Positions 37,452 to 64,000 of a stretch of DNA of 64,000 bases are shown here, piece after piece. The translations under genes were made by a program, and so were the position numbers. The notes beneath the pieces were generated by a model. That model saw nothing but the letters and a program-made list of their open reading frames with translations, was not told where the DNA came from and ran no database searches. Origin of the DNA: Austropuccinia psidii (taxonomy: Eukaryota; Basidiomycota; Pucciniomycetes; Pucciniales; Sphaerophragmiaceae); NCBI GenBank assembly GCA_023105745.1, contig JALGQZ010000008.1:51202618-51266617 (forward strand). Direction: 5' to 3'. Numbering within the stretch: position 1 is the first letter of the stretch; every line of letters starts with the position of its first letter.

Positions 37452-37766
37452 ATGACTCCTACTAGAAGTGGAAGTAATTACTCAATCCAATCAAATGGAT
37501 CTGGACCAGGACATTCCAGTCACAAATCAAAAAGACAAGAATGTCAGCCAAGAGGAGAGGCACAAATGGAGGATGCCAGAACTTCCACCAGTTCCAAAAG
37601 GTTAGCCAGCACCTTTGAACCTCTTATTGAGAGTCCAGAAGCTGACATAACTGCTATTGCTGTTAGACCAGAATCATTTCCAATGGGCAAAAGTGGAGAT
37701 TTACCAGTCTCAGTACAAGAACTGGTTTATGGCCTCCAAACAGCAATAATGGGAACTTCTCCCAAG
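37452..37766 (+). pseudogene. family D gag, N-terminal part
   Basis: ATG at 37452 opens 105 codons, serine-rich and charged (MTPTRSGSNYS...). The frame is cut exactly between codons by family C after the target copy ccaag (37762-37766) and continues in frame at 48112. Together they give a Gag whose later part has the HMEFMKTIDMFKEDF-type core. Confidence 0.75.
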
Positions 37767-38526
37767 TGTAACAACCATCCATCAGGGGTAAGGGTATTCA
37801 TTCATACACCCACTCAAACACCTCAAATCAGCAAATCCAGTATCTGCACCAGCAGTCAGTTTCAGCAATCTTCATTCTGAAACATGCATACAGCTTGGTA
37901 CATCAATACAGCCTGTCAATACTTGTACAGGATGGATTCACCCAATACAGTTTCAGTACACCAGTATGAAACTTTATGATCACTCAAATACACCACACCT
38001 CTTGTACAGGTTCTGTACAGCTGTACAGGACCTGTATTGGCCAGACTCAATTCAATCATCAATTATTCTCATGAAAATTCTTCCTCTGGATCAGGGCTGG
38101 TGATTCTCACATATACCAGCCCCTCTTTCTCCCCCCTGGGGACTTTTCCCCAGTTAATTAATTTAGTTTATTTATCATTTCATAATTATTCTTATCCTTA
38201 TTTTGTGTATTATAATTATTTAATTTTAAGTCAGTCTTTGCATTTCTCTCTTCGCCTGTACAGTATGAGTTGGGTGGCCATATCCTTATTAACCCTTCTC
38301 TTTCCATTCTGACAGGTTGAAACAGTGGACTTGGACTTGTTTGTGGTTGGCTCTTCTATTATTTTACTCTTATCTTGTGTTGCTGCTTTTCTTATATTTA
38401 TTCTTTAGCAATTTATCTTTAACACTCTTAAGTGTATCCCCTTTTATCTTATCTTTGAGCCCTCCATAAGTGAGTCCCAGTTTACTGAGTGCCAGGCCCT
38501 CTTCACTTCGAAGAGCCCCTGTGACA
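37767..38526 (+). repeat. 5' LTR of family C
   Basis: TGTAACAACC ... CCCCTGTGACA. It contains several TGTACAG motifs, a 32-nt near-perfect palindrome (38005-38036), a TATA-like CATATACC (38110-38117) and the inferred R start AGTTAATTAATTTA (38152-38165). Confidence 0.93.
38005..38036. promoter_or_regulatory. 32-nt palindrome in family C LTR (upstream promoter)
   Basis: The two 16-nt arms are complementary except for one pair. The centre is CTGTACAGCTGTACAG. It lies about 115-145 nt upstream of the inferred start site. The 3' LTR has the same palindrome at 47585-47616. It is a candidate binding site for a dimeric factor. Confidence 0.5.
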
Positions 38527-38527
38527 T

Positions 38528-38541
38528 TAAATTAATTAACT
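38528..38541 (+). promoter_or_regulatory. self-complementary primer-binding site of family C
   Basis: TAAATTAATTAACT is the exact reverse complement of 38152-38165 in the LTR. Relative to family A, both partners changed together (ATATA/TATAT to ATTTA/TAAAT). Confidence 0.68.
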
Positions 38542-39257
38542 CATATTTGATTCTTTCTTTTCATTCATTTATATTCATTTTCTCTCATTCATCAATTATG
38601 ACCTTTTCATGATTTTATGATTTTTTATGATTTTCTATGAATTTTTTCTCTCTCATCAATTTTCATCTCATTCATTTCATTCTTATGAAAATTGATTCTT
38701 TTCCTTTCTTAATCATTGCTGACCATTTCATCACTTCATTTTATTTTTTATCAATCAAATTTTTCTGTGTTTTTATTCAGGTCTTCTTCAGGAGTAATTG
38801 ATTGGTTATTTGATTGGATTATTCATTGGGATTCATTGGTTGATTGGGTTATTGATTCAGGATTTCATTTGGATTATTGATTGACTTTTGAACTCTCAAG
38901 ATATTGATTGATCCTGAAGAATTGATTTGATTGTTGATTTTATTTGACTCATCAAGATATTGAATTGATTTCTGAAGATTTTGAACTGATTGATTGATTC
39001 CTCAAGACTTGATTTCATTTGAAGACACTTATTGATTGATTATTGACTGAATATTGACTGATTATTGATTTCCTCAAGATTATTGATATTTGATTGAATC
39101 GATTGTTGATTGATTGAATTTATTTGACTGTTGATTGAATTTGATTCCTCAAGATTTGAATTGATTCCTCAAGATTCATCAAGATTTTATTGTGATTGAT
39201 TTGGCCAAGCCTGATTATTCTTCTTAATACCATCAAGTTATTTTAATTCTTTTCATA
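38542..39257 (+). other. leader of family C
   Basis: TTGATTGATT-rich, about 700 nt, no gene. It is like the family A leaders. Confidence 0.65.
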
Positions 39258-40618
39258 ATGCCAGTCCAGCATAGCCCCCCAGCAAAGAATACTAGATCCC
39301 AGAAAATTCCAGCTGTTCTCACTCCTACAGCAAGGGCTCCTCTTGACCGCACACCATCAGCCATCAACTGAGTGCAAATTTGGACAGAGGACCACCAATG
39401 GAAGGAGCAGCACCCTCAAGAAGAGGTGGAATGAAATCTAGAAGATCAAGATCCTTTTCTGGACTTTTGGGTGGCTACCCTGGCATGTCTGAAGGTGCAA
39501 GAGCAAGATTAGGGGAAGTTGAAGATGAAGAGGGGGAAGAGTCTGTGGAAGAGGAAGATTCTGGGGAAACTGAAGTGGCAGATGCCTTGGCAAATGCTCC
39601 AGAGGTGCCTCAGGGTTCTAATCTAGCCCTTTCTAGTCAACCTCTTGTCTCTCAAACTGATCCAAGTCTCCTCAAGATGATGGAGCAGATGACTCAATTC
39701 ATGGGGCAACTCACTCAAGCAGTTGCCCCCAGGGACAATTCCAAAGCCCCTGCTCTCAAGACTCCATCCATGAAGGCACCTGATTCTTTTGATGATACTC
39801 AAGCTCATAAGTTGAGAGGATTTATCCAATCTTGTCAACTAATTTTCCATAATGATCCAGCAAACTTCTTCTCTGACAGGAAGAAGGTTTTGTACTCAAC
39901 TTCTTTTCTTACTGGTAGAGCTGGCAAATGGATTGAACCTTACCTCTCAAATATTTCCAATGAAGACCCTTCCTACCTCCTCAATAATTGGCCATTGTTT
40001 GAATCTCAATTATTCACTCTGTTTGGTGACCCCAATGAAGTCAGGAAAGCTGAACAAGAGTTGGACAATTTGAGGATGAAGGAAAGTGGTCATGTTTCCT
40101 TGTACATAGCAGATTTCAGAAGCTTAATGTCAAGAATTGGAGATTGGGGGGAAAGAGCTTATATCCATGTTTACAGAAGAGGATTGGCATCAAGATTATT
40201 GGATCAGTTGGCTTCTCACCCTGGAACTTTTGATACTCTTCAAGAACTTATGGATGTCACTCTAGAATTAGACACAAGATATCATGAGAGGCAAAAGGAA
40301 AAGGGTGGCAATCAAGAAAAGAAGCCTCCAGTCAGTGGATCCAATCAGTCTAGGCCTCCTCAAAACTCATTTCAAAAGAGGCCTCATCAGAAGAAGAATA
40401 AGAAGGGCAAGCAATTTCAATCTTCAAACGACAAACCCCATGCTGCTCTCCTCAATAAGGACAATAAATTAATTGGTTCTGAAAAGGAGAGGAGAATTCA
40501 AGCAGGGTTGTGTACTTATTGTGGTGGCAAGCACCCAATTGAAAAATGCTTCAAGAGACCTCAGAACAAGCCTGGGTCATCATCAGGAGGCTTCCCTAGC
40601 AAGCAGGGAAAAGCCTGA
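39258..40618 (+). CDS. family C gag, one frame break near the N-terminus
   Basis: ATG at 39258 gives MPVQHSPPAKNTRSQ and runs to TGA 39369-39371. From about 39,360 the -1 frame continues the family pattern (LDRGPPMEGAAPSR) as a 412-residue open frame to TGA 40616-40618. A single lost base around 39,360 explains this. The product has an acidic stretch, a capsid-like core (DSFDDTQAHKLRGF to LDTRYHERQ), a lysine-rich linker, and zinc knuckle CTYCGGKHPIEKC (CX2CX3HX4C). It would form the particle around the RNA. The break may be an assembly error, given the youth of the element. Confidence 0.85.
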
Positions 40619-40650
40619 GTGGGGATCATGATGTGTTCAATGGTTCTCAC
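40606..40650 (+). promoter_or_regulatory. -1 frameshift signal of family C
   Basis: GGGAAAA (40606-40612) in phase, spacer GCCTGA holding the gag stop, then stem 40619-40627 with 40642-40650: nine pairs, several of them G-U, where family A has A-U or G-C pairs. The pol frame is open only from 40600, so frames overlap by 19 nt around the site. Confidence 0.75.
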
Positions 40651-43600
40651 TTATTTCCTTCAAGAGCACAATTGTGCACTCTGAATACTAGTGTCAAGAA
40701 ATGTTTAAAATTTCTTATTTTCTCTTCTGTCTCTGATATTTTTTATAGTATTCTCATTGATTCTGGTGCTACAAACTCTTTTATTGCAAAGAATTTTGTT
40801 CTCAAGTACTCATTGACTCTGTCAGAGCTCCCTGAAAAGATTCCTCTTTTCATTTTGGATTCTAAGGAGTCCCCTGCCTTGTTCATCACCCATTATACCA
40901 AGTGGGTAGTTGACTTGCCTTCCTTCCCAAGCTTTGAATGGGATTTCTTTATCATAGATTCACCCAAAGGAGAAGACCTGATATTGGGCTATGATTTCCT
41001 TTACCATTTCAATCCCATCATTGATTGGAAAAATGGATTGATCACCTATGATTCTAATCATAAGGATTCTAGTGGTATTATTCCTTCTACTAGTAATGAC
41101 TTAGCCACTGCTGTCAACAGTGTTGCTCTGGCTGGTGAACTTAAGACACCTTCCATTCCTTCTTCTGTCCATATCCCTTCCATAATTCCCTCTCAGTCAT
41201 TACTTCCATCAAGAGATGAAGTCTTCAAAGAGATAAAGGATGTTGGAGAAGATGTTGCCATATCTTCACTTCATCTCTTCCAAGGGGATATGGACCTTCC
41301 TCCCTTATCTTTTCATGCATCCCTGGAGGAGCAGTGGGATGAGGAGGAAGAGCCAGAAGAAATTGAAACTGTGCTGAAGGTTGTTCCTCCTGCTTATCAC
41401 CAATATTTGGATGTATTCTCCAAGGTGAAAACAGAGAAACTTCCTCCACACTGCGCCTGTGATCACCATATCGAATTGGAGGGTCTTCTACCTCCAATTG
41501 GTGTTATCTACTCATTATCAAATCAAGAGTCAGAAACACTGCGGGCCTACATTTCAGAGAATGTAGAGAAAGGTTTCATTAGACCAAGCTCCTCTTCAAC
41601 AGGAGCACCTGTCCTTTTTGTCAAGAAAAAGGATGGAGGTCTTCGTTTGTGTGTTGACTACCGCAAACTCAATGCTGTCACTAGGAAGAACAGATACCCT
41701 GTTCCTCCTATGAACCAGCTCCTTACCGTATTCAACGGTTCCACTATCTTCTCCAAGATAGATTTGCGTGGTGCATATAACCTTCTGAGAATCAAAGAGG
41801 GGGATGAGCACTTAACTGCCTTTAGAACCAAATATGGCAGTTATGAGTATTTGGTCATGCCATTTGGTTTGACCAATGCTCCTGCTTCTTTCCAAAATCT
41901 AGTAAATGATATCTTTGCAGATTTTTTGGATGTGTTTGTTGTGGTTTATCTAGATGATATTATGGTCTTTTCCAGTTCTGAGGAGGAACATGTCAAACAT
42001 GTGGCCTCTGTCCTCCAAAGACTGAGGGACAATAATCTGTTTGCCAAAGCCTCCAAGTGTGTATTCCATGCCTCAAGTGTGGAATACTTGGGCTATGTTG
42101 TTTCAAGTGATGGCCTCAAGATGGATTCTTCAAAAGTTCAGCAAATCCTCAATTGGCCTCAGCCCAGAAACATCAAGGCTCTTCAATCCTTTCTTGGCTT
42201 TGCCAATTTTTATCGACGTTTCATTAAAAATTATTCTAAAAAAATCACTTCTCTCACTTCCCTCCTTAAAAAAGATTCTCCCTTCATCTTCAATGAGGAA
42301 GCTCTTAGTCAGTTTCAAGCACTCAAAGAAGCTTTCACCTCTGCTCCTATCTTATCTCATTTTAATCCTTCTCTACCTACTATAGTAGAGACTGATGCTT
42401 CTGATTATGCATTGGGCGCCGTACTGAGTCAGGTGAATGACTCTGGAAAGCATCCCATTGCATTTGATAGTCGCAAGCTCTTACCAGCTGAGCTCAACTA
42501 TGAGATTCATGACAAGGAACTCCTTGGCATAGTTTGGGCTCTCAAGCGCTGGAGAGCATTTCTTCTTTCTCTTTCCAATCCTTTTGAGGTCTTGACAGAC
42601 CACTCTTCCTTGCAATATTTCATGTCTTCCAAAGTTCTTACTCGTCGTCAGGCCCGTTGGGCCGAATTTCTCTCAGAATTTCATTTCACTATCACTCACC
42701 GCCCAGGCAGGCTGGCCACTTTACCAGATGCCTTGTCACGTCGGGACGACGTGTACCCAGAGAGGGGGGTGGACTTCATCAGCAAGAATCCTCAGAATTT
42801 TCATCAAGTACTTAAGCAAGATGGAATTCAAGAGTCAAGATTCTTCTCAATCAAAGTGGAAATTTTCTCAGATTTAGTTGACAAGATTCAGGAAGAAGTA
42901 TGGCAAGACAAAGACTATAAAGAAATACTCAAGCAACTAGCAAGAGGTGAATCAGTTCCAGATTATTCTCTTGAACCTCAAGCCAAGTTATTATTATTCA
43001 AAGATAGAGTGGTAATCCCAAGAAATGAAGAACTTCAACTCAATATTCTTCAAAAGCGTCATGACTCACCATTGGCTGGCCATCCTGGCCAGGAGAAGAC
43101 CCTCAAGCTCATCAAGAGGGATTTTTATTGGGCTGGCATGAATCAATTCATCAAGGACTATGTGTCCTCATGTCAGCAATGTTCAAGAAACAAGAAAATC
43201 CATCACAAGAAGTTTGGATTACTCAAGCCTCTTTCAATTCCATCTGGTCCTTGGAATTCATTATCAATGGACTTTATCACTCAATTGCCACTGTCCAACA
43301 ACTTTGATTCAATTTTAGTAGTTGTGGACAGATTCTCAAAAATGGCAATCTTCATTCCAACTTATGGCACAATCACTGCTCTGGATTTAGCTCAAATATT
43401 CATTAGCCATGTATTTTCCAAGTATGGACTCCCAGTCAGTATTGTCAGTGATAGAGGATCCTTATTTGTTTCATCATTCTGGACTCAATTGTGTCAGCAG
43501 CTCAAGATATCAAGAGATCTTTCAACTTCCTTTCACCCTGAAACAGATGGACAGACAGAGAGGGTAAATCAGATACTAGAACAGTACCTTCGGATGTATG

Positions 43601-44333
43601 TCAGCTATCATCAAGATGACTGGTACACCTGTCTCCCTCTGGCTGAATTTGCCTATAATAATGCAGAACATTCATCAACCAAGCAATCACTTTTTTCACC
43701 ATTTATGGAAGAAATCCCAGCTTTGACTCAATCCATATTTCTCAAGACTCACCGGCTGGAAAGTTATCAACAAAACTCCAATCAGTACAGCAAGTTGTCA
43801 AAGAAGAATTAGAGTCAGCAATAAGGAGATTCAAGAAGTATGCAGATAGAAATAGGGCAATTCCACCTGATTTCCAACCTGGGGACAAAGTATGGCTAGC
43901 TTCCAAGAACATCAAGACAACAAGACCCACCAAGAAATTATCAGAAAGATGGTTGGGACCCTTTGAAGTTCTTAAGAAGATTGGCAGCCATGCATATCAC
44001 CTCAAGTTGCCTCAGCAATGGAAGACAGTTCACCCTGTATTCCATGTGTCCTTATTAGAACCAGTCAAGCATTCAACTATCCCAAATCTTCATCAATTGC
44101 CGCCACCACCAGTTTTAGTGGAAGAGCAAGAAGAATGGGAAGTGGCTCAGGTTCTGGACTCAAAACTCAAAAGAGGTAATTTATGGTATCTTGTAGAGTG
44201 GAAAGGATTCAGTGAAGACCCAGAAAGAACCACTTGGGAACCAGCTTCCAACCTTACCAACTCACCAGACCTTGTCAAGGATTTCCACTCATTGTATCCA
44301 GACAAGCCTGGTCCAAATACCTCAAGAGTTTGA
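40613..44333 (+). CDS. family C pol polyprotein (PR-RT-RH-IN-chromodomain)
   Basis: Expressed by -1 shift from gag. Protease DSG is at 40759-40767. RT shows [20 protein letters not shown] and catalytic YLDD at 41947-41958. RNase H starts TDASDYALGA (about 42391) with YEIHDKELLGI. Integrase has H-X-H (RHDSPLAGH), CQQC and the DDE residues in SMDFITQLP, VSDRGS and DGQTERVN. A chromodomain (about 44121-44290) has EWEVAQVLDSK, WYLVEWKG, TWEPASNL. The frame closes early at 43812 because the T-run 43691-43696 is one base short of its relatives. The next frame then continues to TGA 44331-44333. Apart from that run everything expected of an active chromovirus is present. Confidence 0.92.
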
Positions 44334-44369
44334 TTTTATGGTGCTTGGTGGGGAGAAGAAGTTATGAAA

Positions 44370-44474
44370 GTAAGTTCCTCTCCTGGCATGCACCTTTAAG
44401 GGGGTATTCTACCCATATGTTGTTGTAAGCATCACCTTGGCCACTTTGTGAGCACTTGTCAATTCTTCGGACAG
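44370..44474 (+). other. intron-like module 1 of family C
   Basis: 105 nt from GTAAGT to ACAG, starting 37 nt after the pol stop, inside the block ATGGTGCTTGGTGGGGAG... that is shared with family A. Confidence 0.5.
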
Positions 44475-44627
44475 GTTCAGGAAGCATACAACATCAATAC
44501 CCTCCATTTGGACCTTATCAAGATATGGCCAAATATTTTCTTTCTTTCTTTATGTTTCATTTTCTTTCTTTATTATCATTTCATTTTATGCCAATCATCA
44601 TAATTCAAGACATTCATTACTTCAAGT

Positions 44628-44705
44628 CATTTACGGCAATTCATTTCAGTAGTCATTCATGGCAAATCATTTCAGAAGGCATTTATGGCAATTTATTTCA
44701 GTCTT
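44628..44705 (+). repeat. three 26-bp tandem repeats, each with TTTCAG
   Basis: Units 44628-44653, 44654-44679 and 44680-44705 share CATT-A-GGCAA--ATTTCAG. They lie between the two intron-like modules, so each unit could offer an alternative 3' splice site. That use is speculative. Confidence 0.6.
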
Positions 44706-44737
44706 ATGGTGCTTGGTGGGGAGTGGAAGCTATGAAA

Positions 44738-44840
44738 GTAAGTTCCATCTCCTGGTATGCATCCCTGAGGGTTCTACTTCTTGTAAAACATCACCTTGGC
44801 CACTCTGTGAGCATCAAAATGCTTGGTTTTCACTTTTCAG
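44738..44840 (+). other. intron-like module 2 of family C
   Basis: 103 nt from GTAAGT to TTTCAG. It is a duplicate of module 1 with the conserved CACCTTGGCCACTCTGTGAG. Confidence 0.5.
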
Positions 44841-45116
44841 ACACTTTTTTTTGGCCAGAATCAAGCAACTCACCACAAGAAGGACCAACCATCAGGATTT
44901 TTCTTTATTTCTTTCTTTACTCTCATTTTCTCTTATTATTTTTTCTTTCTTTCTTTACTTGTATAATTTTCTTTCTTTTATTTCTTTAAAGCAGAAGCAT
45001 CCCCTCCCCAAATCATGTATTGGGAGGTTCCATTATCTTTTTATTTTTTATTTTTTTTTTAGTATTTATAAGAGTGGGGATAGAAGCCAAACCAAACACA
45101 AACAAGGAAAAGGAAA

Positions 45117-46411
45117 CTAGTTATCTCTACCCAAGTCATCAAAAGTTCTCTGGAAGTCATTTATCAACTGATCCTCATACCAGGCAAATTTTGCAGCCAT
45201 CTCTTCAGAAGCAGTACCTGGAATAGTCCTGTCATTGGCATACATAATCACCTCTCTGCTATTTCTATCAACCCTCCTGAACAATCTGGCCACAGCATCT
45301 TGATTTTCACTAGCCGCGTTGGGATCTTCTCTGGTAAACCGGATAGGCCAACGTTCTCTTCTTTGGAAGACTTGGGCGGCAGGAAACGGCAAAGGGGATA
45401 ATCCATCTCTTCTTCTGCTGGAGCTGGCCACAGGTTGGAGTTGACGGGAGGTGGTTATGGGTGAGTTTCTAGGCTGTTGAACTGGTGATGGTCTTACTGC
45501 TGGAATCAAGGCAGGCCTGGTGGTATGGGAAGTAGTTGGTGAAGGAGGAGGAAGGGTTGTAGGAATAGAGGCAAGCATTGGTTGAAAGGTTCTTGGAGTA
45601 CTGGGAATGACTTGACTTTGGAATCTGGTGTTGGCAAGAGGTTGAGAGGAGGAATTGCTGGATGGATGGCCACTTGAATGGGGAATAACTTGAACTTCTT
45701 CACCATCCAACTCATCACTTCCTTCAGCATCTGGATCTGATGGGGAATCAACAATTCTTCCTAGCTTCTTCACTACTTTCACCACTCCATCAGCATTGGT
45801 CCTTGAAATTGGAATTTCTGAGCTGTAGTGGATGGGCCTACCACCAATTGGAGTGGACCCTCCAACATTAGTCCATCTGGCCACATCCCTCTGCCTGGAA
45901 CCAGTCACTACATCAAGATATCAGCACCAATTAAATCAAGATATGCAAAGCACTCACATTGAGAAAATCCAGAAGTGGCATCAGGGGTAGGCTCCTCAAG
46001 AATGGGGAATTCCTGCCCATAAGGCCCATCCTTCCTACTCCACAAGTGTCTCTTGACCCGGGACAAAGTTGATCCGGTACGGCGGCATGGCTTCTTCCCA
46101 ATAAAGCAGAAATGGCATTTTGACGATCGAGGATTGTAATGTTGAAAGCAATCCTTACCCCTGGCCAAACACTCAGTACAGGCAGGATCAAGGACTTCAA
46201 CTGCTCTGAACCCATCATATGTTTGGGAGGGGTCAAAATGGCCAGAAGACGCCATAGAAGGAGAAGACAATCGACTGAAGACGCCAGAACCATGAAGAAT
46301 AGACGGTGGCGGTGCAGAAGGGGAAGATTCAGTGAGCTCAGTCAGTTTGGAACTCATAACTGAAGAATATGCAAGCAGAAGATTCAAGACGTCAGAATCA
46401 ATCCACTCCAT
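45117..46411 (-). CDS. antisense Zn2Cys6-type protein carried by family C
   Basis: Two exons on the minus strand, 46411-45958 and 45907-45117, around a 50-nt intron (45908-45957, GTGAGT...GTAG). Lengths sum to 1245 nt, an intact 414-codon frame. The start MEWIDSDVLN at 46411 is my choice; MSSKLTE at 46357 is an alternative. The N-terminal part has C-X2-C-X6-C-X10-C-X2-C-X6-C, the spacing of fungal binuclear zinc clusters, followed by a basic stretch (RVKRHLWSRK). The middle is proline/serine-rich and the C-terminus is predicted helical and charged (QDAVARLFRRVDRN ... RTFDDLGRDN). In Zn2Cys6 proteins the cluster binds DNA. A role in regulating the element or host genes is inference. Transcription opposite to the genomic RNA explains how an intron survives retrotransposition. 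Confidence 0.75.
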
Positions 46412-46710
46412 ATCAAGAAAAAAGGAACTTGACCCAAGGAAATGGGGCCATAACTCAATTATGCCCCCCCCCTCAAAGCCTCTAAGGTGAAGGTTCATAC
46501 CCCTTTGGGGCTGAACTCATCACCCAGGGCCTCCCTTGCAACTTTGGGGAGGCCAGGATCTTGATGGTCCTGGACCCCATCAATGGGTCCAGGCCATGTA
46601 GGGTAAAAAATGGGTCAGGGCCATTTCTGGACCCCTTGGTCACCCTGGGTCCCCAGCAAATTTGGGCCCAGGGGCTCCATTTTGGTCCTGGGTGCCTCCA
46701 ATAGCCCCCA

Positions 46711-46758
46711 CGGACCGCGGACCGCGGCGTACGGTCCACGGCCCACGGACCGCGGACT
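46711..46758. repeat. GC-rich palindromic cluster (CCGCGG) in family C
   Basis: About 48 bp of repeated CGGACCGCGGAC-type units with three CCGCGG sites and GGACCG/CGGTCC inverted arms, in an otherwise AT-rich element. It lies 300 bp upstream of the antisense gene start, so it may be part of that gene's promoter. Confidence 0.55.
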
Positions 46759-46765
46759 GTAGGAT

Positions 46766-47333
46766 CCCAGAGACTCAAAAGGGCCAAAAAGGGCCAAAAA
46801 TCAATATATCAAGGTTTTTCACCAGAGCACCCAAAAAGGCCTAAAAGGCCATAAAAAGCAAATTTCATCAAGATCACTCAGGATGGAGGCCACAGCCCAA
46901 AACCCGCTTGGAGGGCTGTCTGAGGCCAATTCCTTGGATGATGGGGACAAGACCCCTTGGAGGAAAGTTTCACTCATTCATTGGATTAAGTCTGGGCCAA
47001 TGAGTACAAGTCATATACTCATTGAGCCCCAATTTCTGAGCACAAGTGCTCAATGGCCTTTATTCTGGGATATATCCCAAGGCCACATCCCAAGGCATGG
47101 CTGATTGAATCAAAAGAAAAAGAATGGCATATTCTGGAAGGAATACTCACTCAAGCTTGGAAAAAAGGGGGAATCAATTGAATTTGGCAGGGAAGAAGGA
47201 ATGAAGGATTTTCAGGATAATGGTCAAGAGGAAAGAAAATTAAAAGAAGAAATTTTTTGAAAAAACTGTGGGGATATTGAGATGCCACTCAACAGTGGCA
47301 GGGTATTATGGTGTTCAGGAGCCCACCAGTTTC
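46766..47333 (+). other. non-coding 3' part of family C
   Basis: The stretch between the GC cluster and the polypurine tract. No gene seen; the short open frames show no recognisable domain. Confidence 0.5.
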
Positions 47334-47346
47334 AAGAGGGGGATAC
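47334..47346 (+). promoter_or_regulatory. polypurine tract of family C
   Basis: AAGAGGGGGATAC directly before the 3' LTR. Confidence 0.8.
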
Positions 47347-48106
47347 TGTAACAACCATCCATCAGGGGTAAGGGTATTCATTCATACACCCACTCAAACA
47401 CCTCAAATCAGCAAATCCAATATCTGCATCAGCAGTCAGTTTCAGCAATCTTCATTCTGAAACATGCATACAGCTTGGTACATCAATACAGCCTGTCAAT
47501 ACTTGTACAGGATGGATTCACCCAATACAGTTTCAGTACACCAGTATGAAACTGTATGATCACTCAAATACACCACACCTCTTGTACAGGTTCTGTACAG
47601 CTGTACAGGACCTGTATTGGCCAGACTCAATTCAATCATCAATTATTCTCATGAAAATTCTTCCTCTGGATCAGGGCTGGTGATTCTCACATATACCAGC
47701 CCCTCTTTCTCCCCCCTGGGGACTTTTCCCCAGTTAATTAATTTAGTTTATTTATCATTTCATAATTATTCTTATCCTTATTTTGGGTATTATAATTATT
47801 TAATTTTAAGTCAGTCTTTGCATTTCTCTCTTCGCCTGTACAGTATGAGTTGGGTGGCCATATCCTTATTAACCCTTCTCTTTCCATTCTGACAGGTTGA
47901 AACAGTGGACTTGGACTTGTTTGTGGTTGGCTCTTCTATTCTTTTACTCTTATCTTGTGTTGCTGCTTTTCTTATATTTATTCTTTAGCAATTTATCTTT
48001 AACACTCTTAAGTGTATCCCCTTTTATCTTATCTTTGAGCCCTCCATAAGTGAGTCCCAGTTTACTGAGTGCCAGGCCCTCTTCACTTCGAAGAGCCCCT
48101 GTGACA
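47347..48106 (+). repeat. 3' LTR of family C
   Basis: 760 bp, five substitutions against the 5' LTR, followed by target copy ccaag. Has the same palindrome and promoter motifs. Confidence 0.93.
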
Positions 48107-48111
48107 CCAAG

Positions 48112-51447: not shown

Positions 51448-51787
51448 ACACCAGGGCAAATCTCGCGTCAATCGTCGGCGATTGACTTCACGTCGCACCG
51501 CCGTCAGTATAAAATCTTGCTTCAGTCACGTTAGTGTCACTTTATAGTCACTGGATTTAGTGGGTCACTTCACGTCAGCATCAAGACAACGTCAATCGTC
51601 ACATGTGTCACATGAGAATGTCACTCAAAGCCCAAACCCATTTCAACACTATGCGCAACGTTCGTGTAATTTCACCTCATTGGCTTCCGCCTCCCCGACG
51701 CTTAGCATGCTTACGCACCCGCACCGCCCTCCATCCGGATGAGACTCCGACACTGCCCGCCCCTCTCCGTCCTCACCACTCCTTACG
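51448..51787. other. GC-rich junction sequence, no gene
   Basis: Abrupt rise in GC with repeated CGTCA/TCACGTC words (51,460-51,620), then pyrimidine-rich sequence. No gene recognised. Confidence 0.5.
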
Positions 51788-52386
51788 CTTTCACACCCCC
51801 GCCCCTACCATCCTTACGCTTGTGTAGTACCCTCCCGACATGCCTCCGACAACGCTTACCATCCATACGCTCATGTAGTGCCCTCCCTACATGCCTCCGA
51901 CACCACTTATGACCCTTACGCTCATGTAGTGCCCTCCCGACATGCCTCCGACACCACTTATGACCCTTACGCTTGTGTAGTGCCCTCCCGACATGCCTGC
52001 GACACAGCTTACCATCCTTACGCTTGTGTAGTGCCCTCCCGACATGCCTCCGACAACGCTTACAATCCTTACGCTCATGTAGTGCCCTCCCGACACTGCT
52101 TACCATCCTTACGCTCATGTAGTGCCCTCCCGACACTGCTTACCATCCTTACGCTCATCTAGTGCCCTCCCGACATGCCTCCGACAACAGTTACCCTCCC
52201 TCCCGACATTCTCCCAACACTGCTTACCATCCTTACGCTCATCTAGTGCCCTCCCGACATGCCTCCGACAACAGTTACCCTCCCTCCCGACATTCTCCCG
52301 ACACTGCTTACCATCCTTACGCTCATCTAGTGCCCTCCCGACATGCCTCCAACAACGCTTACCCTCCTCACGCTTCCGTATTACAT
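51788..52386. repeat. minisatellite 1 (51-bp units with 40- and 84-bp variants)
   Basis: The core word CCTTACGCT recurs, followed by CATGTAGTGCCCTCCCGACA. Regular 51-bp spacing from about 51,864 to 52,065, then two 40-bp units and 84-bp compound units. The long open frames in both directions exist because 51 is divisible by three. I do not regard them as genes. Confidence 0.85.
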
Positions 52387-55736: not shown

Positions 55737-57015
55737 ATGCCATTCACGAAAAAAGGAAAAGAGTGTAAAAGGGAACTCGCGAGAAAGCGTCGGGATGAGG
55801 AAGGAAAGTGTGAGTTACTCGCTTAATCTCAGTGTATATATATAGATATATATATATGCTTCCACATTTATGTGGCACCCTCATTGGGCCCCACTGAAGA
55901 ACATGGGCTTTAGTCGGTTCAGATTGTGCCAATGTCATGTGGGCTCCAACAGGGAAGTCAAAGGATGTGTGCCAAAGAAAGCTCCTTGGCAGTATCTGAT
56001 ATCTTGTGTGCTTCAACACGTAGTGATCCCTCAACCACTCGGGAATAGTAGCAGATCCCAAAAGACAAATGAGCGCAAAACAACCCGAATGAATAGGTTG
56101 TTTTCCTCCTCTCGCCCAACAGCACAAATATCAATGCCAGTATCAGCAAATATCACCCCAAGTGAAATTCGGAGGCTTGTGGATGTCAATCAGATCAAAC
56201 GCATTCACTTTGGGCGTGTGGCAATTTTCTCTTCAACCGGATTACTCATTTCCCTTGTCAAATTCCGACCATTCACAACAATGAGTGAAGTCGAGGTCAA
56301 TCAATGGGATGAATTATCACAATTCCTATTTCGCAAAAAGAGATTCACCGACCCAATTGCAACCAATGGAGCATTACTGGAGGGATTTATTTTCGCAATT
56401 GGGTGGTGCAAATGCAGCACCAAGAATGAACAATTTGGTTTGTATGGAAGTGTTGGGAAAATTGAAAACGCAAAAGATGAATGGCAGAACCGAGGTCCCA
56501 ATCTTAGCTCGGTGGGTTGCATTCTAGGTCAATCCTTACGATATGTTGGGGATAATTTATTTGAGAGGATTCAAAATTGCTACAATTCATTGGGGGTTCC
56601 GTCTTTTGATCAAGTCAACTATGAAGGCAATATTCCGGCAAATCAGGGTGCATTCGAGTTCGCTTCCGCACTCACTTTCACCATGAATGGATTCAAAAAC
56701 GCACCTCATGTTGATAAGGATGCATCACTGTATGCTTCGGGATGGTGGTTTCAAGCTGATAAGCGGACCGGCCAAATTCAAAGAGATGCGTCAAAGCGGT
56801 GTACAGGTGGAAAATTGATTTTCCCAAATGAGCATTTTTGGATTGATCTATCCGCATGTCATGGGCTCATTCAGGTAGTGTGGGCCAGTAGTACATTTGC
56901 TCATTATACTGATCCAGCAAAGGACAACGAAAGCACGACACTAGTGGGTATGTCCGCACAATGCTCAAGCAGGTTAGCAAAAACAATGCGGCAAAAAAAG
57001 CCATGGCTATTATGA
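55737..57015 (+). CDS. TET/JBP-like 2OG-Fe(II) dioxygenase
   Basis: Probable exon 1 at 55737-55808 (MPFTKKGKECKRELARKRRD, nuclear-localisation-like) before GTGAGT. The acceptor is uncertain (55899 keeps frame), and MNRLFSS at 56089 is an alternative start. The catalytic part shows the iron ligands HVD (56707-56715) and a distal histidine in FAHYT (about 56902), the CTGGKLIFP strand between them, and an arginine about 23 residues on (SSRL) suited to bind 2-oxoglutarate. This is the double-stranded beta-helix signature of TET-like enzymes, which oxidise 5-methylcytosine or thymine; fungal members are expanded in basidiomycetes alongside transposons. The frame ends at 57015 because of an A7 run (56993-56999). 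One base fewer would extend it to the TGA near 57,080. Substrate is inferred. Confidence 0.78.
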
Positions 57016-62616: not shown

Positions 62617-64000
62617 ATGTCAACCCCTTCACAACCACTTTGCATTGGGATGATTAATATTTGTATTCCAATAAATAGTGATATAGCCTTAAATCCTGAG
62701 AATTCCCACTTAGCTTCTTGGATTATCATATGGCACAATCAACAAAACATATTTGTTTATCTCCCCAATCACCAGCGTGCTATTGGCTCTCTACCTGGAA
62801 CCCTTTCCAAAACCTTGATACCATTCCTTGGGGCACCAAAAACGTTCATGCACTGTGGTCCTGGTGGGGCATGGATTGAAAATTGCCAATCCAATCCTTC
62901 TCAAATATTATTCGTTGAGGGAGTATTTATGACTGATGCAAATGATCCCTCCTCATCTCAGAAACCCAATCTAGCATTGATGTTCTTCACATGGTATCCA
63001 AACATTTTATTCATAATGGAAAGCTTTCGAACACAAGATTTCAAGCTTAAAATGCCCAAAGAATATGACTGTAATACTCATAGTCAATGTCAACTCTTCA
63101 CTCCGACATTTCCCGCTTCAAGATTGACGCCAGTTTCATATCCTGCTGTTTCATCATTGGTTTCCAAGCAGAAACTGATACAATTACCCAGTGGATCAGA
63201 CCTCCCCATGCCATTATTCAAACCCCCCTACTCCCTCATCAAAAGACCGGACTAGCTTTTCTCTGGGATCGAGAAATCCCCAATGGCCAATCAGCCCGTA
63301 ACCTTTGGGCCACCTCACCCCCAGGATCCACTTTCAATGCCAGGCACATCATTACAAACAAGGTCATTAGCACATTTGAATCCCTTTCGACCAATACCCC
63401 TCTTGGAGGACTGCTCGCGGATGATATGGGATTAGGTAAAACCATTCAGGCCATTGCTCTAATTGGTACCTCCAAGGAGCGGATGATTGCAAACCCCCAT
63501 CGCTCCACGCCCACCATGATCATCTGCCCCCCTCGCTTAATTACCAACTGGCAATCAGAAATATCCAAGCATGCTCAGGCTGGAGCGCTGCATTCCAAAA
63601 TCTACCATGGTCCCACTCGTCACTCATTATCCAAAGACGACATCTTAAAATATGATATCATCATCACTTCTTACAATACTGTCACCCAAGAATTTAAGCA
63701 AACCAATACCTCTACATCATTCATTTTTCAAATCAATTGGCATCGTGTAATTTTGGATGAAGCACAGTGAGTGTCTGATCTTAAATGATTCAAATTACCT
63801 TTTATATCCAATAACCCTTGCCCCATCTTATAGCTATATTCGCTCTCAATACACTGCCACTCACCGTGCCATCAATAGCCTCCTTTCATCCCGCCGAATA
63901 TGTTTAACAGGCACACCATTTATGACCTTTTGGGCATAATATCATTCATCACTCAACCCCAGAGCGCCGATCAAGATAACTGGTCACCATTCATCCTGAG
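62617..64000 (+). CDS. SNF2-family ATPase (Rad5/Rad16-like), 5' part, frame-broken
   Basis: ATG 62617 opens a 212-residue frame with an unrecognised N-terminal domain (ALNPENSHLASWII ... FRTQDFKLKMPKEYD). Around 63,240 the coding frame changes and continues as PHQKTGLAFLWDRE, LADDMGLGKTIQAIALI (Walker A), MIICPPRLITNWQSEI, DIIITSY and VILDEA. A 67-nt intron (63767-63833, GTGAGT...ATAG) splits the last box, and splicing yields DEAH followed by YIRSQ, then LTGTP. Just after LTGTP (about 63,911) the frame shifts again. These are motifs I, Ia, II and III of SNF2 helicase-like DNA translocases that remodel chromatin or act in repair. The second ATPase lobe lies outside the window. The two frame breaks suggest a pseudogene copy or sequence errors. 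Confidence 0.8.

Follow-up and report, generated by a model that had tools for sequence, protein, structure and literature searches.

A recently active chromovirus carrying an antisense gene

The window, that is, the whole 64-kb stretch of DNA analyzed here (G000:C8:51202618-51266617), comes from a 1.015-Gb genome assembly of the myrtle rust fungus Austropuccinia psidii comprising 84 contigs. The genome of this species exceeds 1 Gb and consists mostly of transposable elements, among which Gypsy elements predominate, according to excerpts of PMC8063080. The window contains a Ty3/gypsy chromovirus of 10,340 bp at positions 37767-48106, the features of which are collected in Table 1. The element displays the protease, reverse transcriptase, RNase H, and integrase order and the chromodomain by which Ty3/gypsy chromoviruses are recognized: pol matches the Pfam families RVP_2, RVT_1, RT_RNaseH, Integrase_H2C2, and rve, and the following frame matches Chromo (E = 7.2e-12). 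The pol frame of the window copy is broken at approximately 43.70-43.81 kb, and the presence of the SH3 and chromo domains in the frame after the break assigns the element to the chromoviruses. When 4 copies with full-length pol were aligned, 3 were 1-2 bases longer than the window copy and the fourth was shorter. The chromovirus carrying the antisense gene is recently active. The minus-strand gene that the initial annotation had placed between pol and the polypurine tract was recovered with the same coordinates, intron, and frame.

Elsewhere in the window, an open reading frame at 55870-57015 (+) strongly matches Tet-like 2OG-Fe(II) oxygenases (PF20515, E = 1.2e-42), and a SNF2-related ATPase domain (PF00176, E = 5.1e-32) lies at the window edge (63084-63770, +). 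A second, decayed multi-exon gene at 59622-58245 (-) encodes an N-terminal CX2CX6CX9CX2CX6C cluster, a middle part rich in proline, and a charged segment at the C terminus. It has 196 relatives at E <= 0.001, of which the 120 listed are all from A. psidii MF-1; some relatives are labelled Zn(2)-C6 fungal-type by UniProt.

Table 1. Features of the chromovirus and its antisense gene (positions in the window).
Feature	Position	Strand	Remarks
Target-site duplication CCAAG	37762..37766 (left), 48107-48111 (right)		
5' LTR, 760 bp, TG...CA	37767..38526	+	5 differences from 3' LTR
gag	39380..40618	+	Pfam: Ty3_capsid PF19259, Retrotrans_gag PF03732
pol: protease, RT, RNase H, integrase	40633..43812	+	Pfam; frame break close to the end in the window copy
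pol C-terminal segment, next frame	43815..44330	+	SH3_Tf2-1 and Chromo; chromovirus
Antisense gene, exon 2	45117..45907	-	Stop codon 45119-45117
Predicted spliceosomal intron, 50 nt, GTGAGT...TAG	45908..45957	-	GT..AG in 58/59 copies
Antisense gene, exon 1	45958..46411	-	First ATG at 46411 unconserved; likely start Met19 at 46357
Cys6 cluster CX2CX6CX10CX2CX6C, residues 78-109	46085..46180	-	By spacing
CpG-rich CGG/CCG array	46701..46762	+	11 CpG in 62 bp, upstream of antisense gene
Polypurine-tract-like AAGAGGGGGATAC	47334..47346	+	Precedes 3' LTR; by eye
3' LTR, 760 bp	47347..48106	+	5 differences from 5' LTR

Structure of the antisense gene

A first look at the genome yielded 3,324 candidate matches to the gene, 40 of which were scored. 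Conservation was assessed in 59 gene copies, namely the window copy, 26 of the 39 other places found with the gene as query, 18 found with pol only, and 14 of the 39 other places found with a diverged copy as query; L009 was left out as a duplicate of L002. The 18 pol-only copies derive from 26 that were fetched, the remaining 14 of the 40 pol places adjoining members of the gene list. Of these copies, 18 belong to sublineage X and 40 to sublineage Y; L057 is intermediate and was set aside when the two were compared.

Excision of 45957-45908 (GTGAGT...ATGTAG) on the minus strand leaves 414 open codons, reproducing the 50-nt intron and single frame described initially; 14 alternative GT-AG pairs that were tried would likewise open the frame. 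The intron contains a branch-like CTGAT, the A of which lies 13 nt upstream of the intron end and which is kept in 58 of the 59 copies, and the same exon junction, judged by an approximate pattern, is present in 60 of 120 automated A. psidii MF-1 gene models. By established retrotransposon biology, an intron that exists only on the minus strand escapes splicing from the plus-strand genomic RNA and thus survives reverse transcription.

The open reading of 414 codons holds, but its first ATG is not the likely start. Met occupies codon 1 in 40 of the 59 copies; throughout the 18 X copies, and in L057, this codon reads Val. Codon 19, in contrast, is Met in every copy, and 69 of the 120 MF-1 gene models start at Met19. 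Since Met19 is universal and codon 1 is variable, we propose that translation starts at 46357, so that the predicted protein probably comprises 396 aa. The exon 2 product is rich in Ser and Pro in its middle, and a stretch at its C terminus is modelled as a helix with low confidence. Among relatives of 228-724 aa, the best 120 of 618 are all from A. psidii MF-1.

Purifying selection on the encoded protein

Private exon changes in the first 27 copies (24 synonymous, 61 nonsynonymous, and 3 stops) lie near the neutral share of 23.5% synonymous, suggesting that copies decay neutrally once inserted. Across all 59 copies, private changes amount to 56 synonymous and 126 nonsynonymous (stops counted as nonsynonymous), whereas changes common to at least 3 copies number 30 and 17, respectively (p = 7.3e-5); without CpG transitions, the ratios are 27:9 for shared and 41:119 for private changes (p = 7.9e-8). 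Changes common to exactly two copies (5:19) are not enriched in synonymous ones. The near-fixed differences between sublineages X and Y (present at >=80% on each side, counted from codon 19) comprise 24 synonymous and 6 nonsynonymous changes, 0.11 of the private ratio (p = 6e-7; the Fisher tests used throughout assume independent changes). Set beside the neutral private changes, this excess indicates that selection acted during element replication. The signal is strong in exon 2 (p = 1.4e-5), with exon 1 alone giving p = 0.30 for all changes and p = 0.022 without CpG transitions. Five copies compared across the element gave shared synonymous to nonsynonymous counts of 2:0 for gag, 5:2 for pol, and none for the antisense gene, too few to serve as a yardstick.

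Neutral decay of the antisense frame, which the initial annotation named together with missing antisense transcripts as contrary to its claim, is ruled out by the synonymous excess among the shared changes and between X and Y; the survey of the frame across the 59 copies thus reveals purifying selection at the codon level. In a six-frame control, the signal resides in the claimed spliced frame and four other frames lack such an excess, so that neither a frame of the sense strand nor one read without splicing can be the selected one; the minus-strand frame with the same wobble position displays a weaker echo (odds ratio 2.0, p = 0.048; 3.4, p = 0.0026 without CpG transitions). Taken together, the substitution patterns indicate that the amino-acid sequence of the antisense protein is conserved by purifying selection in the replicating lineages. 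Copies that are intact, i.e., free of stops, frameshifts, and in-frame deletions and with the splice sites, the codon 19 Met, and six Cys present, account for 22 of the 27 copies selected by the gene and for 9 of the 18 selected by pol.

These patterns also bear on whether the antisense RNA is the active agent, by pairing with genomic RNA into a duplex, by silencing, or by titration, the protein being secondary. Excerpts of PMC7264820 report a proposal that antisense transcripts of LTR elements work via dsRNA, and antisense long noncoding RNAs of transposable elements are described in a powdery mildew (PMC10648671, in part); selection that is amino-acid-specific and confined to one frame argues against such a role, which we consider improbable.

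Deletion derivatives lacking the gene

With a 1.8-kb pol segment as query, the 40 best matches were scored for the gene, which accompanies 32 of them (18 fetched in full and 14, including the window, scored by the nearness of a gene-list member within 8 kb), is partial in 2, and is missing from 6. The pol segment of the gene-minus elements is 99% like that of the window element. Three of them, L046, L052, and L056, have a common junction (45160|46351 in window positions) that keeps both gene ends, which rules out gain of the gene by some young copies as an explanation for these three; judging from the junction, gene loss is the derived state there. For L055, with its junction at 45148|46431, a gain is weakly rejected by a short, diverged 3' remnant. 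In L047 (45116|46412, with a 16-base overlap) and L050 (45109|47091), we infer loss as the direction. Because L050 and L055 have the same left flank, three, perhaps four, deletions are counted. The gene is thus dispensable in cis.

The absence of the gene from 6 of 40 pol-selected copies, and the cellular look of its intron and of its cysteine pattern, which is of fungal type, could also be reconciled with a captured host gene riding as a passenger of no use to the element. The 24:6 ratio between lineages, against neutral private changes, makes this highly improbable, and in a search among proteins of 455-1449 aa the 4 matches are all A. psidii models, none being a homologue from outside this species and one representing a fusion with an integrase domain.

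A more distant family, A, has a pol 72-80% identical over the main stretches and 1.46-kb LTRs. A tblastn search of the gene across the window gave no second match and no trace in the family A elements, upholding, within the window, the earlier statement that family A is devoid of the antisense segment.

A cysteine cluster with Zn2Cys6-like spacing

The N-terminal cysteine cluster with Zn2Cys6 spacing that had been noted initially is present: all six Cys of the protein fall within a single CX2CX6CX10CX2CX6C cluster, which agrees with the Zn2C6 definition CX2CX6CX5-16CX2CX6-8C (PMC2447501, in excerpt). Shuffling the protein 200,000 times never reproduced such spacing, and the six frames of the 64-kb window contain one further stop-free match to it. 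Cys78, Cys81, Cys102, and Cys109 are invariant among the 45 copies compared, whereas 44 of them keep Cys88 and 42 keep Cys99. Changes from Cys to Phe in the region of codons 88, 95, and 99 were observed in 5 of the 59 copies (L043, L021, L049, L053, and L068), Phe is the most frequent substitute for those Cys in the 120 MF-1 gene models, and a CpG stop recurs at codon 95 (L043, L051, and L057).

An HMM search of the cluster, a check named beforehand, did not bring up Pfam Zn_clus (PF00172) with the window protein at E <= 1 or with 37 relatives at E <= 10, with the same outcome when P0002, P0015, and P0027 were rescanned. The window protein matches no Pfam family at E <= 1, TRP28 (PF04195) being likewise absent, searches of PDB sequences returned nothing usable, and two AlphaFold models (pLDDT 37 and 46) were uninformative. 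As in the Zn2Cys6 transcription factors of fungi (PF00172), the cluster has the CX2CX6CX10CX2CX6C spacing and basic residues beside it; the protein differs from them in matching no Pfam profile, and in having no further transcription factor domain that we found, and the second half seems, by eye, to be the more basic one. Hence, of the initial designation as a Zn2Cys6 transcription regulator, the spacing stands whereas the domain match does not, and that identity is only plausible.

We think it quite unlikely that the cysteines form no zinc cluster and are a chance resemblance or serve a different use. The lack of a Pfam match, the low-confidence models, and Cys99Phe in 3 of 45 copies point that way; the confinement of all six Cys to the cluster and the shuffling result point the other way, as does the second repeat gene family of the window (59622-58245), which has similar spacing and a Zn_clus match below the curated cut-off (E = 0.0084) in its second half. 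A profile comparison of the two families aligned exactly the six Cys, at a nonsignificant E = 0.11.

A CGG array and the possible role of the protein

Approximately 0.3 kb upstream of the gene lies a CGG/CCG array of variable length with a CpG observed/expected ratio of 1.30, versus 0.13 elsewhere in the element, and with 11 of the element's 67 CpG. It was scored in three sets of copies: all 8 gene-list loci, the window included, contain it (4-12 triplets per best 80-bp stretch), as do all 14 X copies checked (2-14 triplets, the weakest being L069 with 3 in 700 bp) and 5 of the 6 gene-minus copies (4-16 triplets), L050 having lost it with its larger deletion. Family A elements reach 3-4 triplets per 80 bp. 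A second dense CGG/CCG cluster at 51681-51800 (10 per 120 bp) adjoins 51-bp tandem repeats and an RT-like stretch of another retroelement. CGG triplets are preferred by Zn2Cys6 proteins (PMC12719309, in excerpt), and from this we infer that the array is a candidate target of the antisense protein, although it may have some different role.

The region from the gene to the 3' LTR (46412-47346), in which the array lies, diverges by 6.5% among six copies picked by gene similarity, compared with 0.9% for gag (five of the six), 0.5% for the gene exons, and approximately 2% for the LTRs, a contrast pointing to rapid change or to an exchange of modules. A scan of 46380-47400 for bacterial-type promoters and terminators, a model ill-suited to a fungus, found no excess over chance.

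As a candidate role, to which we assign a probability of roughly 0.45, the antisense protein may be a trans-acting nuclear regulator that binds nucleic acid. An antisense promoter in 46412-47346 or in the 3' LTR would drive the putative regulator, which would contact DNA via its zinc-cluster-like Cys6 domain and the basic stretch behind it, perhaps at the CGG array that precedes the gene, and would tune antisense and/or genomic transcription of the element family. Acting in trans, it would allow gene-deleted derivatives with the array and LTRs to still multiply. The lack of a Zn_clus match, the pLDDT of 37 and 46, and the fact that gene-minus copies multiply too all count against a regulator. 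It is somewhat unlikely that the protein is instead a structural or RNA-handling accessory of the particle, such as a zinc-knuckle-like chaperone or a packaging or export factor. Selection on the protein is silent about the cell compartment, and a Cys6 cluster without a Zn_clus match, in a chain modelled with low confidence over its whole length like disordered proteins, would suit an accessory; the fit to the Zn2C6 definition (PMC2447501, in excerpt) and the CGG array adjoining the gene speak for a regulator, as does the mostly nuclear, regulatory nature of the HTLV antisense proteins (PMC10186651, in excerpt).

A narrower version of the regulator reading, decidedly tentative and on balance unlikely, is that a diffusible Zn2Cys6-like regulator reads the array beside its own gene, the single CpG-rich place in an element poor in CpG, and that recurrent deletion derivatives dropping the gene but keeping the array parasitise this two-part circuit. 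If so, the split into autonomous and non-autonomous elements would rest on a transcription factor and not on gag-pol. Binding of the protein to the array, should it occur, would make the role of retrotransposon antisense genes directly testable, in a family that offers 3,324 first-look candidates, codon-level selection, natural gene-minus derivatives, and a candidate target.

Relation to known antisense genes

Antisense genes have been known in plant LTR retrotransposons since the 1990s (PMC7264820, in part). Those of plant Ty3/gypsy elements, including gene23 of maize Grande, rice RIRE2, and Retand with TRP28, have the same antisense location between pol and the 3' LTR, and that of Retand is kept in nearly all recent clusters, with a nuclear or DNA-binding role proposed (excerpts of PMC7264820 and PMC11963269). 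The plant genes differ in belonging to the non-chromovirus Retand lineage and in encoding other proteins; the word "intron" is absent from the main text of both papers. The spliced antisense genes HBZ/APH of HTLV-1 to -4 likewise belong to LTR retroelements and encode regulators of transcription, a likeness in manner of working only; their products are bZIP or other unrelated proteins, and in HTLV-1 the promoter is known to lie in the 3' LTR (PMC10186651, in excerpt). The open-access literature yielded no antisense retrotransposon gene from a rust or with a Zn2Cys6 product, which leaves its absence from print unproven, and two papers on the A. psidii genome (PMC8063080 and PMC12774611) and one on rust transposable elements (PMC12210899) do not use the word "antisense" in their main text.

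The Boty-like elements of Botrytis cinerea reside in an ascomycete, as opposed to a rust here, and are likened to the present element by description. Their antisense gene, brtn, reportedly goes back to Zhao et al. 2011. According to excerpts of the papers citing it (PMC7264820, PMC8365987, and PMC4227169, the last for the domains), these too are fungal gag-pol-chromo elements with an extra antisense gene. The kind of gene described here is thus already known from plant Ty3/gypsy elements and has been reported from Boty; what is added is evidence of selection at the codon level and a testable mechanism.
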